DNA from: Actinomycetes bacterium
Lineage (GTDB): Bacteria; Actinomycetota; Acidimicrobiia; Acidimicrobiales; RAAP-2
Length of the DNA stretch: 34,536 bases
Assembly (NCBI GenBank): GCA_021818025.1
Contig: JAKAFH010000015.1
Coordinates: forward strand, 1 to 34,536
Direction of reading: 5' to 3'
Shown: positions 12,021 to 16,943 of the stretch, piece after piece
Numbering within the stretch: the first letter of the stretch is position 1
Layout of the letters: every line of letters begins with the position of its first letter
Made by a program: the position numbers and the translations under genes
Notes under the pieces: generated by a model
What the model was told of the DNA's origin: nothing
What the model saw: only the letters and a program-made list of their open reading frames with translations
Database searches by the model: none

Positions 12021-12146
12021 GTGTTCATCGCCGTGTTCGGATTCTTCGTCGTCGCCCTGCTCGTGCTCAGCGTGCTCGTCGTGCGCTTCGCGATCCGCCG
12101 CGACCGCGAGCGCCGGGCTAGCGGGTCCGCTCCTCGAGATCCTTGA
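12021..12146 (+). CDS. 41-aa single-pass membrane peptide
   Basis: Small protein beginning MFIAVFGFFVVALLV. One strongly hydrophobic helix covers about residues 2-24, followed by a highly basic cytoplasmic tail (RRDRERR at about 26-32), giving an N-out/C-in topology. No homolog can be named. Support comes from the TAGCGT box exactly 6 nt before the GTG, the same leaderless layout used by neighbouring genes, and from the clean membrane-anchor composition. Its last 29 bp overlap the 3' end of the coiled-coil gene on the other strand. It could be a membrane anchor or regulator of a neighbouring complex; that is speculation. Confidence 0.5.
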   Translation: MFIAVFGFFVVALLVLSVLVVRFAIRRDRERRASGSAPRDP

Positions 12147-12339
12147 TCCGCCGGTCGAGGTCGGCGATGGCGCGTTCGATCACGGCCAGGCGCGCGTTCA
12201 CGATCGACTCGACGCGCTCGTCCACGCGCTGGTCGACCTGCTCGCGCAGGCGCGAGTCCAGCGAGTCCACGAGCGGTTGGGCGAGCTGCTTGAGCCGGTC
12301 GCGCAGCTCGTGGGACTTGGGACTCGGCTCGTCGCTCAC
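12118..12339 (-). CDS. 73-aa coiled-coil protein
   Basis: Small, highly charged protein predicted to be almost entirely helical. Heptad-like spacing of L/V/I runs from about residue 12 to 71 (for example LKQLAQPLVDSL and IERAIADLDRRIKDLEE). No transmembrane helix or enzymatic motif is present and the function is unknown. GTG 12339 follows a TAGTCT box by 6 nt, and the first three bases of that box are the TAG stop codon of the upstream glycoside-hydrolase-like gene. It converges on the 41-aa membrane peptide gene with a 29-bp overlap. A coiled-coil partner or adaptor role is plausible. Confidence 0.65.
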   Translation of the reverse strand: MSDEPSPKSHELRDRLKQLAQPLVDSLDSRLREQVDQRVDERVESIVNARLAVIERAIADLDRRIKDLEERTR

Positions 12340-12345
12340 GGCGCC

Positions 12346-12351
12346 AGACTA
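12346..12351 (-). promoter_or_regulatory. -10 box for coiled-coil gene, overlapping the upstream stop codon
   Basis: TAGTCT on the minus strand, 6 nt before GTG 12339. Its TAG (12351-12349) is the stop codon of the preceding gene. Confidence 0.5.
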
Positions 12352-14538
12352 CGCCGCGGCCGGCGGGCAGTAGACGCCCGCGTTGAACTGCAGGGTGTTG
12401 AACTGACCCGACCACGGGGGATTGAGCAGGGTCGACTCCTCGCTCGCGAGTGTCGACGTGGGCGAGCAGACGGCGCTGAAGGCGATGTAGCCGCGCACGT
12501 TGCTGCCCACGGTGCCCATGACCGGCACCGGTCCGCCGCCGCCGAAGGCGAGCGCCACGAAGACCGGCATCGGGGCGTTGGCGAGGTGGTAGTTGCGGTA
12601 CTCGGACTGCGAGGCGTAGACCCCGGCGTTGAGCGAGGGGTCGACCGAGGCGATGCCCGCGGCCCAGCCGCGCAGCATCGCCGACCAGTAGCCGGTATAG
12701 AGGGCCATCGTGGCGTTGGAGGCGCCGCCGGGTGCGTCGAGGCCCGAGTGCGAGTCGGGGTAGCCCTCGGGGTCCAGGATCACCCAGTCCGGCTTGAGCC
12801 CCACCCCGAGGCTGCGGTACTGGTCGATCTGGGTCGCGACCCAGGCGCCGGCGGCGAAGCCGTGCCGGTAGTACGTGGCGGCCGCGATCGTCTCACCCGC
12901 CAGGGGTCCACTGACCGTCCAGAACGACAGCCAGGTGACGCGCTTGTGGGCGTTGTAGAGGCTCTGGCCCATCAAGAAGTCCGGCGACGTCGCCACGCTC
13001 GAAGCTGTCGTGAACCCGACCCAGGGTGACGAGGTGGTGCCGAGGCCGCCGGTCTCGCTCACGATCGGCCAGCCGTCACTGACCGACTGGGTCCACTTGG
13101 CAAAGGGGATCGCGTAGACGCCGACCCCCTGGGGCGGCGGCGAGTTCACGCCGGCGGCGTAGAGGCTGAGCGTGCCGTTCAGCACGAGTCCGGTGACCAC
13201 CGTGCCGACGGTGCGCGCCGCGCTGCCGGCCGTGACCGACACGTCGGTCGAGGTCCACGGCGCGAAGCCGCTCGAGCTGGTGAGCGTGAAGAGGTCGCCC
13301 CAGTTGGCGGCCTGGCCCGCGATGGTGATCTGGGTCGGCGTCACGCTCACGAAGAGCGCGCCGCCGAGCGGGGGCGAGCCCGGCGCGACGGCCGTCACGT
13401 TGAGCACCGTCCACGGGTAGGTCGGGGTCGGGTTGGGGATCGTGGTCGTGGTCGTGGTGGTCGTCGTCGTGGTTGCCGGCGGGAGTGTCGTGGTCGTCGT
13501 CGTGGCCGCCGCCGGGGCGAAGACGGTGGACTGGTTGAAGGTGGTCAGCGGAGCGCTGAAGAGCTCGACCGAGCCCAGCGCGCTGAGCGCGGCGACAAAG
13601 ACGCTCGTCGTGGAGGCGGACGCGGCGAGGGGCCCGTGCACGCGGGGGCCGCCGGTCATGCGGGTCACGTCCTGGACCAGCCACGTGGTCGGGGCCGTCG
13701 GGCTCGTCGAGAAGACCTGCAGGTCGCCGTTGGCGGCCACGGCCGCGACGGCCGGGATCGGGCCGGGCACGACCACCGGGTCGCTCGAGGACTTGGCGGC
13801 GTGGGTGGCCTGGGTGAGGTTCACCGGCGGGGCCGCGACGTAGGGGATCGGCTCGCCGCTGCTCCAGTCGAGCGTGATGGCCTCGACGGTGTTGAGCGAC
13901 GTGCGCGCCGCGACCATCGCGGACGCCCCGGTGACCGCGACCGTGGCGAGGCCCGTCGCGAAGGTGGTCTGGGTGATCGCGCTGAGGTCGGTGACGAGGG
14001 TGGCGTGCCACGCTTGGCCGGGATGGGTGTGCACCCACACCGAGGTCGCCGGATCGTTCTGACTCAGCATGATGAGATGGCCATCGGTGTCGACGTAGAG
14101 CACGTCGATCGCACCCGACGGGTCGATGAACGGCACCGGGTCGGCGGCCGGGGCCGGGGCGTCAAGGCCGAGCGAGAGGTCGGCCCACTGGCTCGTCCCG
14201 GTGGAGGACTCGGTCAGGAGCGCGACGTCGTTGCTCGCGGTACGGTAGGCGATCGCCCCGATCGTCCCATTGCTCGTGCCGTGGGGTCCGCCGAGCATCG
14301 TCGAGTTGTTCACCGAGGCGCTCATGGACTGCGCGTTCCAAGGCAGCGGGCCCGAGCCGTTGTTGAGGAACTGATAGAGCGGCAGACTCGCCGGGGCGGC
14401 ACTGGCCGAGGGCCCCGTTGCCGCGCCGACGTGCGCGACGACGCCGACCAGGCCGACGCCGAGCAGTGCGCCGACCAGGGTGAGCCGTGCGAGCGGCGCG
14501 CGACTACGTGCAGCGGGGGTCGTCCGTCGTCTTGTGAT
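12349..14538 (-). CDS. secreted multidomain protein with C-terminal glycoside-hydrolase-like domain; probable ATC start
   Basis: About 729 aa if read from ATC 14538. Residues about 1-45 form a classical signal peptide: a TRRRTTPAARSR n-region, an LTLVGALLGVGLVGVV core and an Ala-rich cleavage region. Two beta-rich regions follow, at about 75-340 and 370-485, perhaps propeller-like with repeated short strands. They are separated by a Thr-rich linker at about 342-366. The C-terminal part (about 487-729) resembles GH25/DUF1906-like TIM-barrel domains, with a DxE acid pair at D589-P-E591 in WVILDPEGYPD and a later GVYASQSEY strand. The first ATG is at 14325, but that would discard the signal peptide. 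No ATG, GTG or TTG lies between the in-frame TAG stop at 14547-14549 and 14325. A TAGACT box sits 6 nt before the ATC. Confidence 0.72.
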   Translation of the reverse strand: MTRRRTTPAARSRAPLARLTLVGALLGVGLVGVVAHVGAATGPSASAAPASLPLYQFLNNGSGPLPWNAQSMSASVNNSTMLGGPHGTSNGTIGAIAYRTASNDVALLTESSTGTSQWADLSLGLDAPAPAADPVPFIDPSGAIDVLYVDTDGHLIMLSQNDPATSVWVHTHPGQAWHATLVTDLSAITQTTFATGLATVAVTGASAMVAARTSLNTVEAITLDWSSGEPIPYVAAPPVNLTQATHAAKSSSDPVVVPGPIPAVAAVAANGDLQVFSTSPTAPTTWLVQDVTRMTGGPRVHGPLAASASTTSVFVAALSALGSVELFSAPLTTFNQSTVFAPAAATTTTTTLPPATTTTTTTTTTTIPNPTPTYPWTVLNVTAVAPGSPPLGGALFVSVTPTQITIAGQAANWGDLFTLTSSSGFAPWTSTDVSVTAGSAARTVGTVVTGLVLNGTLSLYAAGVNSPPPQGVGVYAIPFAKWTQSVSDGWPIVSETGGLGTTSSPWVGFTTASSVATSPDFLMGQSLYNAHKRVTWLSFWTVSGPLAGETIAAATYYRHGFAAGAWVATQIDQYRSLGVGLKPDWVILDPEGYPDSHSGLDAPGGASNATMALYTGYWSAMLRGWAAGIASVDPSLNAGVYASQSEYRNYHLANAPMPVFVALAFGGGGPVPVMGTVGSNVRGYIAFSAVCSPTSTLASEESTLLNPPWSGQFNTLQFNAGVYCPPAAA
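13433..13512 (-). repeat. low-complexity Thr-codon tract (ACC/ACG repeats)
   Basis: Imperfect ACG/ACC triplet repeats encode two runs of threonine separated by LPPA in the glycoside-hydrolase-like protein. This is a probable flexible, possibly glycosylated linker and a site prone to slippage. Confidence 0.75.
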
Positions 14539-14544
14539 GTTCCC

Positions 14545-14550
14545 AGTCTA
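14545..14550 (-). promoter_or_regulatory. -10 box preceding the ATC-start gene
   Basis: TAGACT on the minus strand, followed by 6 nt (GGGAAC) and ATC. The spacing is identical to that of the S53 and coiled-coil genes beside it. Confidence 0.55.
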
Positions 14551-14586
14551 CGGGTGGGGTCTTCGCGGTTCTCGGCGCCACCGCGG

Positions 14587-14606: not shown

Positions 14607-16943
14607 CTAGGGCCGTCGCGTGGTGAGCGTCGCTACCCGCGACGCGGGGCTCGGTCGGTGGGCGGCGACGTAGCGCACGATGACGTGGTACGTGGCGCCC
14701 GCGGCGAGGTGGTCGATGACGATCGCGGCGCCCCGGCGGGTCGCGCGGCGCCACGTGTGTCCGCCGTCGATCGAGTACTCAAAGACGCTCGCCGAGGCGG
14801 CGCCGGGCGCGCTCGTGAAGAGCTGCGCACCCGACACGAGCGGCACTACGCGCGAGATCGTCGGCGCCGCGAGCGGCGCGACCGATGGCGTCACGGTGAT
14901 CACCGTGTCGAGCAGCGTGGTGTTCTGGTAGTTCACCGTCACCGTCAGCGGACCGGGCTTGGAGCTCGAGACGCTCACCGACCCCACGCCGTTAGCGTTA
15001 GTAGTGACGGCGTAGGTCGCGCTGCCCGTGCCGGTGGTGCTCGAGGGGTCGGCGTTGAACAGCACCGTCCCGCCCGCCTCGCTCGCGGCGACCGACACCG
15101 ACGCGTCGGCCACGGGTCCACCCGCCTGATTGCGCAGGGCGAAGGACACGGTCGCAGTCGCGTTGGCGCGCAGCCGGCTCGTCGAGACCGAGGCCGTGCT
15201 CGCGCCGGCGTCAAAGGCGATGGGGCAGAGTCCGCTCAGGAAGGTGGTGGCGTTGGGGCTGCCCAGACCCGAAGCCATGTCGTACCCGGGACCCGCGCTG
15301 TAGACGCCGACGTTGAAGATGTCGTTGTTGCCCGTCGTCACGTCGTTGTAGCCCGTGGTGGCCATCGCGTAGAGCGCCGGGTTGATCAGCCCGAGGCGGC
15401 CGACGCCGCACTGCTGGGCGGCGACCGCGACGAGCGCGCTGACGAGCGGCGCGCCGATCGAGGTGCCGCCGATGCTCGACCAGCCCGAGCCGCAGTTCGA
15501 GCCGCAGTCGACGGCGCTCGTGCCGGTGAAGTATTGGATGAAGCCCGTCGACGGGTCGGCCATCACCGAGAGGTCGGGCACGAGGCGCATCGTCTCGCTC
15601 GACGAGATCCCCGGGGCGCTCTGCCACGGCGGGCGCGACCATAGCGAGGAGACCCCCCCGCCACCGGCGCCGCCGCCGCTGCTGCCCGAGTTCCACACGG
15701 TCTCGTTGAGTGGCGCGATGCTGTTCACGGTGAGCCCGCCGACCCCGGTGACCAGGGGCTGGGATGCGGGGTCGTCCACCGCGGGCGCGTTGGTGGTGAT
15801 GCCGGTGCAGTCCGAGGAGCCGCTGTCGCCCGAGGCGGCGACGACCGTCTGGCCCTGGGCCGCCATCTGCTCGAAGATCGCCTGCTCGGCGTTGACCGCG
15901 CCGTTGGGGTCCTGCTCGCAGGTGCCCCAGGACGTCGTGACGATCGAGGCGGTGTTGTCGTCAGCGATCTGCTGGTAGGCGTCGATCGGGCCCGCCGAGT
16001 TGTTCGGTGCCGCGTAGACCTCGATGGCGGCGCCCGGGGCGAGCACCGACGCCTCCTCGACGTCGAGGGTCGCCTCGTCGCTGTAGGCGCCGGTGGCGCC
16101 GCCGTCGACGTTGACGTTGGTGATCGTCGAGGTGAGGCCGTAGCACGAGTAGTAGGTCGCGAGGTCGCTCGGGCTGTACTTGCCGAGCTCGTAGACCGCG
16201 ATGGTCTGGCCCGCGCCGGTGATGCCGTTGGCCCAGGCCGTGCTGAGCCCGTAGAGCTGGGCCTGCTGCTGGGCGCTGTAGCCACCGAGCGAGTTCGGCG
16301 TGGTCGCGTCAGTCGACTGGCCGCCCGTCGCGCTCGCGCAGGTCGTCGGCGCGCTCGCGCCCGAGGCGCGCGACGACAGTGCCAGGGCGTGGGGAGTGAT
16401 GACGGTGGAGAGTCCCGCCACCGCGCGCACGTCGTGGGCGATCGGCGCGGGCAGTGTGGCGGGCGTCGTGAACTGGGCGGCGAGGTGCGTGGGCGTGCGC
16501 ACCGTCGCGACCGACGCCGCGAAGGCCCGGGCGATGTCGGTGGTCGATCCGCTCACCGGCAGGATGACGCGGCCGCGGCTCAACGCGCCCACGTGCAGGT
16601 GGAAGGAGGTGAAGTAGTCGCGCACCGCGCGCACGACGCTCGCGCGCGCGCCGAAGCGTGCGGCGAACTGGGCCGTGGAAAGGAAGTGCCGGTAGTTCGC
16701 CGACGCGGGGTTGGTGAGCTGCGCGAGGAACGTGGTCAGGGCCGCGTGGTCGGGTCCGGTGAGCGCGACGTCAAAGGAGGTGGTGATCGGTCCGGTGACG
16801 GTCGTGAGCGTGGCCGGCAGGGTCACGGGCCGAGCGACGACGACGCGGGCCTGAGCGCCACCGGCGCTCGCGAGCGGCACGAGTCCGGCGGTGACGGCGA
16901 GCGCGAACGCCGCGATCGGCGCGAGGGGGGATCGAGGGTTCAC
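14607..16943 (-). CDS. secreted S53 (sedolisin/kumamolisin-type) serine peptidase
   Basis: 778-aa exported endopeptidase of the serine-carboxyl family, typically active at acid pH. Order of parts: signal peptide (about 1-32), activation prodomain (about 40-195, with the NYRHFLSTAQFAARFG motif), catalytic domain (about 215-575), then Ig-like/fibronectin-like C-terminal domains (about 585-778). Catalytic residues are visible as E290 and D294 (DEATLDVEE), oxyanion D373 (SGDSGSSD) and S495 (GGTSIGAP). The Ca site is GYDMASGLGSPN. GTG 16943 follows TAGGCT by 6 nt (leaderless). Its own prodomain implies autoactivation outside the cell. It precedes the secreted glycoside-hydrolase-like gene by 68 bp. 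Confidence 0.94.
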   Translation of the reverse strand: MNPRSPLAPIAAFALAVTAGLVPLASAGGAQARVVVARPVTLPATLTTVTGPITTSFDVALTGPDHAALTTFLAQLTNPASANYRHFLSTAQFAARFGARASVVRAVRDYFTSFHLHVGALSRGRVILPVSGSTTDIARAFAASVATVRTPTHLAAQFTTPATLPAPIAHDVRAVAGLSTVITPHALALSSRASGASAPTTCASATGGQSTDATTPNSLGGYSAQQQAQLYGLSTAWANGITGAGQTIAVYELGKYSPSDLATYYSCYGLTSTITNVNVDGGATGAYSDEATLDVEEASVLAPGAAIEVYAAPNNSAGPIDAYQQIADDNTASIVTTSWGTCEQDPNGAVNAEQAIFEQMAAQGQTVVAASGDSGSSDCTGITTNAPAVDDPASQPLVTGVGGLTVNSIAPLNETVWNSGSSGGGAGGGGVSSLWSRPPWQSAPGISSSETMRLVPDLSVMADPSTGFIQYFTGTSAVDCGSNCGSGWSSIGGTSIGAPLVSALVAVAAQQCGVGRLGLINPALYAMATTGYNDVTTGNNDIFNVGVYSAGPGYDMASGLGSPNATTFLSGLCPIAFDAGASTASVSTSRLRANATATVSFALRNQAGGPVADASVSVAASEAGGTVLFNADPSSTTGTGSATYAVTTNANGVGSVSVSSSKPGPLTVTVNYQNTTLLDTVITVTPSVAPLAAPTISRVVPLVSGAQLFTSAPGAASASVFEYSIDGGHTWRRATRRGAAIVIDHLAAGATYHVIVRYVAAHRPSPASRVATLTTRRP

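Follow-up and report, generated by a model that had tools for sequence, protein, structure and literature searches.

The window, by which we mean the whole stretch of 34,536 nucleotides analysed, is contig 43 of a 2.06-Mb draft genome in 148 contigs (G000). The gene of interest, here called the window gene, lies on its minus strand between a gene with a pro-kumamolisin activation domain and a 73-residue frame (Table 1); the box of the latter overlaps the stop of the window gene. An earlier reading of this DNA, made from the sequence only, had described TAGGCT-6-GTG and TAGTCT-6-GTG ahead of these neighbours, and both are present (GTG at 16943 and 12339, respectively). It had also described, for the window gene, a TAGACT box followed after 6 nt by ATC, which was confirmed; TAGACT-N6-ATC occurs once in the window versus 0.03 times expected from shuffles. 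That a signal peptide is encoded in frame upstream of ATG 14325, with no earlier ATG, GTG or TTG after the stop, likewise held up; ATG 14325 lies beyond the signal peptide. The upstream stop itself had been placed at 14547-14549 and is in fact the TAG of the box, 14550-14548. Read from ATC, the window protein begins ITRRRTTPAARSRAPLARLTLVGALLGVGLVGVVAHVGAATG..., with a net charge of +6 ahead of the hydrophobic core. No SD sequence precedes any in-frame NTG of the gene.

Table 1. Coordinates of the window gene, its signals, its neighbours and a second gene (window positions unless a locus is given)
Feature	Position	Strand	Remarks
-10-like box TAGACT	14545..14550	-	its TAG doubles as the upstream stop that closes the frame
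ATC, proposed start codon at +1 of a leaderless mRNA	14536..14538	-	box spacing 6; ATC or ATT in seven orthologs
Coding frame of the window gene, 729 codons plus stop	12349..14538	-	stop at 12351-12349
Signal-peptide region, end approximate	14395..14538	-	Arg-rich n-region, hydrophobic core; from hydropathy and charge, cleavage site inferred
41-nt block starting exactly at ATC	14498..14538	-	identical in G122, one change in G115
Predicted beta-propeller-like part, residues about 50-460	13159..14391	-	low-confidence Thr-rich linker 338-373
Upstream neighbour, pro-kumamolisin activation domain	14607..16943	-	TAGGCT-6-GTG
Downstream neighbour, 73-residue frame	12118..12339	-	TAGTCT-6-GTG
PAP2-type phosphatase, 159 residues	L063:2829-3308	+	TAGACT-6-ATT; contig 1 of G000; found by geometry scan

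The whole window protein had no match in Pfam, NCBIfam or PDB sequences. A structure model built from 14 sequences (mean pLDDT 56.5) reached good confidence over most of residues 50-335 and fair confidence over 371-460, but was not confident in the C-terminal part. The best PDB matches to it by Foldseek were the Photorhabdus propeller lectins PLL and PHL, which took ranks 1-22 (E 1e-12 to 6e-10, TM on target 0.66-0.72, identity 12-15%). On this model the product is predicted to be a propeller-like, lectin-like protein whose C-terminal part is conserved but of unknown fold, and the signal peptide fits its secretion; a carbohydrate-binding role is inferred from the fold alone.

Leaderless geometry and the orthologs of the window gene

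With no SD sequence to help in placing the codon, leaderless initiation is generally assumed to require AUG or GUG at the RNA 5' end. In leaderless mRNAs of Deinococcus, TANNNT boxes lie about 6-7 nt before the start, according to the available part of the source (PMC12340547). The window gene meets this spacing criterion and resembles the leaderless mRNAs of Actinobacteria and Deinococcus in its box, its lack of an SD sequence and its neighbours, which are of the same type with GTG. It fails the requirement for AUG or GUG at the 5' end, having ATC, as its orthologs discussed below have ATC or ATT. ATC sits at the predicted +1, so we infer that no SD sequence can precede this start in the RNA. 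Predicted folds of the first 45 nt of RNA differ between orthologs (no shuffle control).

To place this geometry in its genomic context, coding-like frames following a box were collected from 517 kb of G000 and their first codons counted. At box+6, 52 of 96 frames began with ATG (26) or GTG (26), versus 2 of 30 at box+5 (both ATG); the counts were 11 ATG and 4 GTG of 47 at box+7, and 12 ATG and 1 GTG of 97 at box+9. Because of the difference between box+6 and box+5, we take the leaderless geometry to be common and real in this genome, with its ATG/GTG peak at box+6. ATC and ATT showed no clear excess at box+6/7 over other spacings in the same 517 kb. A strict scan was made for TANNNT-6/7-ATH frames that lack NTG alternatives; it discards frames in which an NTG occurs early or upstream, or in which a long open frame lies upstream. 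It gave nine matches: four in 727 kb of G000, none in 408 kb of G115, three in 435 kb of G123 and two in 149 kb of other relatives. Five of the nine were the window gene or the PAP2-type phosphatase gene described below, and the remaining matches, two each in G000 and G123, were judged doubtful on visual inspection. The same filter kept out the window-gene orthologs of G115, G026, G041, G120 and G113. A genome-wide AUC rule is unsupported, the strict scan of 35% of G000 having returned only two credible genes. Matches with ATT or CTG from looser scans, ahead of three genes that each have an ATG further on, were dropped; we take these genes to encode NrdR, RecA and DnaK.

Of 99 searched genomes from the genus, 95 carry the window gene. 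ATG or GTG at the ATC position in close relatives would have refuted the proposed start. All three nearest orthologs (G115, 84% identical; G122, 83%; G026, 73%) instead have ATC after TAGACT, at a spacing of 6 in G026 and 7 in G115 and G122. Further orthologs have ATC (G120, G041) or ATT (G113, G118) at box+6/+7, and the TAGACT box is kept in all seven. Read from ATY, the N-termini of these seven and of the window gene carry a net charge of +4 to +7 before the hydrophobic core. An in-frame NTG ahead of the core exists in five of the eight ATY loci: in G026 a GTG abuts the box and a TTG follows GAGG at a distance of 9 nt, and G041, G120, G113 and G118 have later in-frame NTGs, none of them SD-led by the criterion used. 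In G115 and G122 the first in-frame NTG lies inside the core, 60-57 nt ahead of the LPLYQF codon. The genomes are without exception drafts or metagenome bins, and start sites were inferred from comparison only.

Among 38 further orthologs, counted without 2 repeats and 10 rows that came from named contigs, an SD-led start occurs in 32, at distances of 42-71 nt after the box (mostly 49-56); the six without one include G127 and G123, which lack ATY in the window gene and have ATG 34 nt after the box instead, and which both have ATC in the PAP2 gene. Two of the 38 (G034, G109) combine ATT at box+7 with an ordinary SD-led GTG. ATC or ATT at box+6/+7 was thus found in 10 of 46 genomes, and an SD-led in-frame start was missing in 7 of these 10 versus 6 of the 36 others (Fisher p 0.0025). 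This p value ignores relatedness and is therefore too small, and 49 of the 95 gene-bearing genomes lay outside the tabulation. In a 57-row tree, from which G118 was absent, seven of the eight ATY loci fell, together with six further rows, into a set of 13 (support 96); ATY did not form one clade. Some SD-led orthologs (L040-L045, L056, L062) have a similar leader of ~50 nt, with apparent short inverted repeats before the SD sequence when inspected by eye; these leaders are perhaps structured 5' UTRs.

A PAP2-type phosphatase gene with the same geometry

The second gene, for a membrane phosphatase, was assigned to its family by a Pfam PAP2 match (E 2.4e-12); the best NCBIfam matches were undecaprenyl-diphosphatases, below their cut-offs. 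Matches to the gene were found in 53 of 99 genomes of the genus, and N-termini were compared for 47 loci from 46 genomes after excluding two duplicate fetches and seven genomes with weak or partial matches. In the start column, ten loci from nine genomes have ATY (ATC in nine loci of eight genomes, ATT in G000), and the other 37 have GTG or ATG. The geometry is common to both groups: TANNNT stands at a spacing of 6 in 29 of the 37 RTG loci and TAGACT at 7 in seven, with no TANNNT in one (G042), and the ten ATY loci have TANNNT at 6 in nine and TAGACT at 7 in the second G118 copy. G118 carries two copies of the gene (L158, L237), with ATC in the start column of both.

In G000, G115, G002, G026 and G122 the TAG of the box closes the reading frame four codons before ATY. 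G123 and G127 lack any in-frame NTG between ATY and the preceding stop, 50 codons away, and also within the 49 codons that follow. In the other ATY loci the next NTG is at codon 15, 17 or 18, within the first hydrophobic stretch. Both G118 copies have an in-frame NTG far upstream (59 and 76 codons). In the PAP2 tree all ATY rows are united in one clade (support 97), and the state changes only once, a number as low as this being reached in none of 500 shuffles. To judge from the alignment and tree, it looks as if ATY had directly replaced RTG in a leaderless gene, on one branch, and the gene very probably starts at AUY.

Selection and competing readings

The window gene has been kept without a canonical start, and strong purifying selection acts on its body. 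Counted from codon 50, dN/dS was 0.147 for the window and G115, 0.173 for the window and G122, 0.104 for G115 and G122, 0.269 for the window and G026, and 0.181 for G115 and G026; with changes placed using G026 as outgroup, the window branch has 9 nonsynonymous and 30 synonymous changes and its sister 12 and 46. The beginning of the gene speaks against a simple coding reading, and looks like a conserved RNA leader that codes poorly. The window and G122 have no silent differences in the first 12 codons, the only one of 57 blocks so low, and differ in 189 of 606 same-residue codons (~31%) over the whole gene; the 12 codons that follow ATC have a GC3 of 0.42, in the bottom 2% of 57 leaderless RTG genes (mean 0.77). 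The 41 nt shared with G122 start precisely at ATC, and the six or seven bases that separate it from the box vary, so the RNA 5' end appears to be at ATC. We read the 41-nt block as a former 5' leader that would now also encode the n-region and remain under RNA-level constraint, its history being inferred.

The same block could be an untranslated conserved leader, with translation starting at a weak codon near the ancestral start, codon 17 of a four-row alignment. This would account for its silent-site conservation and low GC3, and the SD-led starts of the other orthologs do fall near codon 17; in G026 this codon is the TTG preceded by GAGG. It is CTG in G115 and G122, however, and CTC in the window; no SD sequence precedes any in-frame NTG in these three, nor codon 17 when inspected by eye; and CTG was not enriched even with an SD sequence in Mycobacterium smegmatis, as far as the accessible part of the report goes (PMC4633059). 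Such a start would also leave the PAP2 gene unexplained. We therefore regard it as unlikely, although for the window gene a conserved leader combined with some other weak start cannot be ruled out. Another possibility is that ATY at +1 is kept only as a signal for transcription start or RNA stability, and that the genes start by an unknown route. The abrupt onset of conservation at ATC after a variable spacer would fit, but in the PAP2 gene ATY stands in the column where 37 other loci have their RTG start, which is hardly chance, and we give this idea little credence.

Two further alternatives had been raised by the sequence-only reading. If a recent start mutation had silenced secretion, translation would begin at ATG 14325 or not occur at all, and the window does lack a canonical start before 14325. 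Yet G115 and G122, in separately named assemblies, also have ATC and no canonical start before the hydrophobic core, the low dN/dS is no looser on the window branch than on its sister, the charge and hydrophobicity of the signal peptide are intact, and starting at 14325 would remove the invariant LPLYQF...PLPWNA stretch. These observations contradict a silenced gene, which is more improbable still than a mere RNA signal. A sequencing or assembly error, conceivable in a draft of 148 contigs, can be practically dismissed, as the same ATC recurs in the separately named bins G115, G122 and G026.

The AUC start on a leaderless mRNA that had been proposed for the window gene is thus the best-supported reading, the three nearest orthologs having ATC and the PAP2 gene showing the same switch; it is unproven, and without RNA or protein data we put its probability at about 0.7. 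More broadly, with transcript 5' ends and N-termini inferred, we conclude that this lineage starts leaderless mRNAs at AUC or AUU in at least two genes. Transcription from the TAGACT promoter would begin at the A of ATC, and a ribosome carrying initiator tRNA would start on the 5'-terminal AUC, yielding the full signal peptide and a secreted lectin-like protein. Comparison suggests that the SD-led GTG or ATG ~50 bases after the box was lost in the lineage and that the leader became the n-region. Because the PAP2-type phosphatase gene shows the same swap, AUC or AUU in place of AUG or GUG on leaderless mRNAs is probably an inherited trait of the lineage; the swap is evident from comparison, the initiation is not.

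The initiation machinery and known systems

Baudet et al. 2010 reportedly describe an ATC start in Deinococcus deserti. Among the literature matches listed there was no AUC leaderless start, most subscription journals being outside the coverage. AUC/AUU leaderless starts go against published assays in M. smegmatis, so far as these could be consulted: only AUG and GUG were accepted in leaderless reporters, AUC serving as a negative control; ATG and GTG made up all but 547 of 343,242 reads from a 64-codon library at +1; and with an SD sequence at a leadered position ATT kept 9.8% and ATC 0.2% (PMC4633059). An AUC start has been proposed, as for the window gene, for Staphylothermus marinus L12ae, in that case by alignment (PMC2678158, available in part).

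AUH starts are a known theme for infC, AUA being the infC start of Staphylococcus aureus (PMC13009471, seen in part). The ATC start of infC stands behind a strong SD sequence, RAGGAG-6/7-ATC, in 18 of 18 genomes of the genus checked (L201-L218), so that a conserved AUC start, proposed for the latter, is common to infC and the window gene. A GTG lies three codons after this ATC in eight of the 18, all outside or at the edge of the ATY group, and infC of G000 has no NTG before the conserved part. This suggests that AUC works as a start codon in the genus. It has no bearing on leaderless initiation; infC is SD-led, unlike the window and PAP2 genes, which have no SD sequence and start at the predicted 5' end.

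Changes in the initiation machinery were considered as causes and rejected. For an altered initiator tRNA, the usual anticodon arm was matched perfectly in G115, G002, G026, G123, G118, G041, G120 and G113, and ARAGORN called tRNA-Met(CAT) in the six of these on which it was run (G115, G002, G118, G120, G026, G123). No match to the arm was found in G122 or G127, and the initiator tRNA of G000 was not found, a place with one mismatch not being called as a tRNA. Loss of IF3 was rejected on the presence of infC in all 18 genomes looked at, the sequences not having been compared residue by residue.

According to the available portion of a review, some leaderless mRNAs are inhibited at higher IF3 levels and stimulated at low ones, and infC mutants that are less strict in codon choice enhance them (PMC9031893). 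In vitro, initiation at third-base mismatches, AUU with CAU for example, fell as IF3 rose (PMC10158994, likewise seen in part). Because this literature and the M. smegmatis assays disfavour such starts, initiation at a 5'-terminal AUC should be weak and sensitive to the IF3 level of the cell, unless the lineage has changed something. A wider proposal, which we offer only tentatively, is that 5'-terminal AUC/AUU forms a regulated class of leaderless starts in many species of this Acidimicrobiaceae lineage, entered by the PAP2 gene through RTG-to-ATY replacement and by the window gene through conversion of an SD leader, and coupled via IF3 to the AUC start of infC.

If AUC/AUU starts are indeed kept over several species, pairing at the third codon base would be dispensable for leaderless initiation in some bacteria, and gene finders would trim or miss proteins that start in this way. 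The ATY and RTG orthologs would then be natural gene pairs for testing how ribosomes and IF3 choose start codons.
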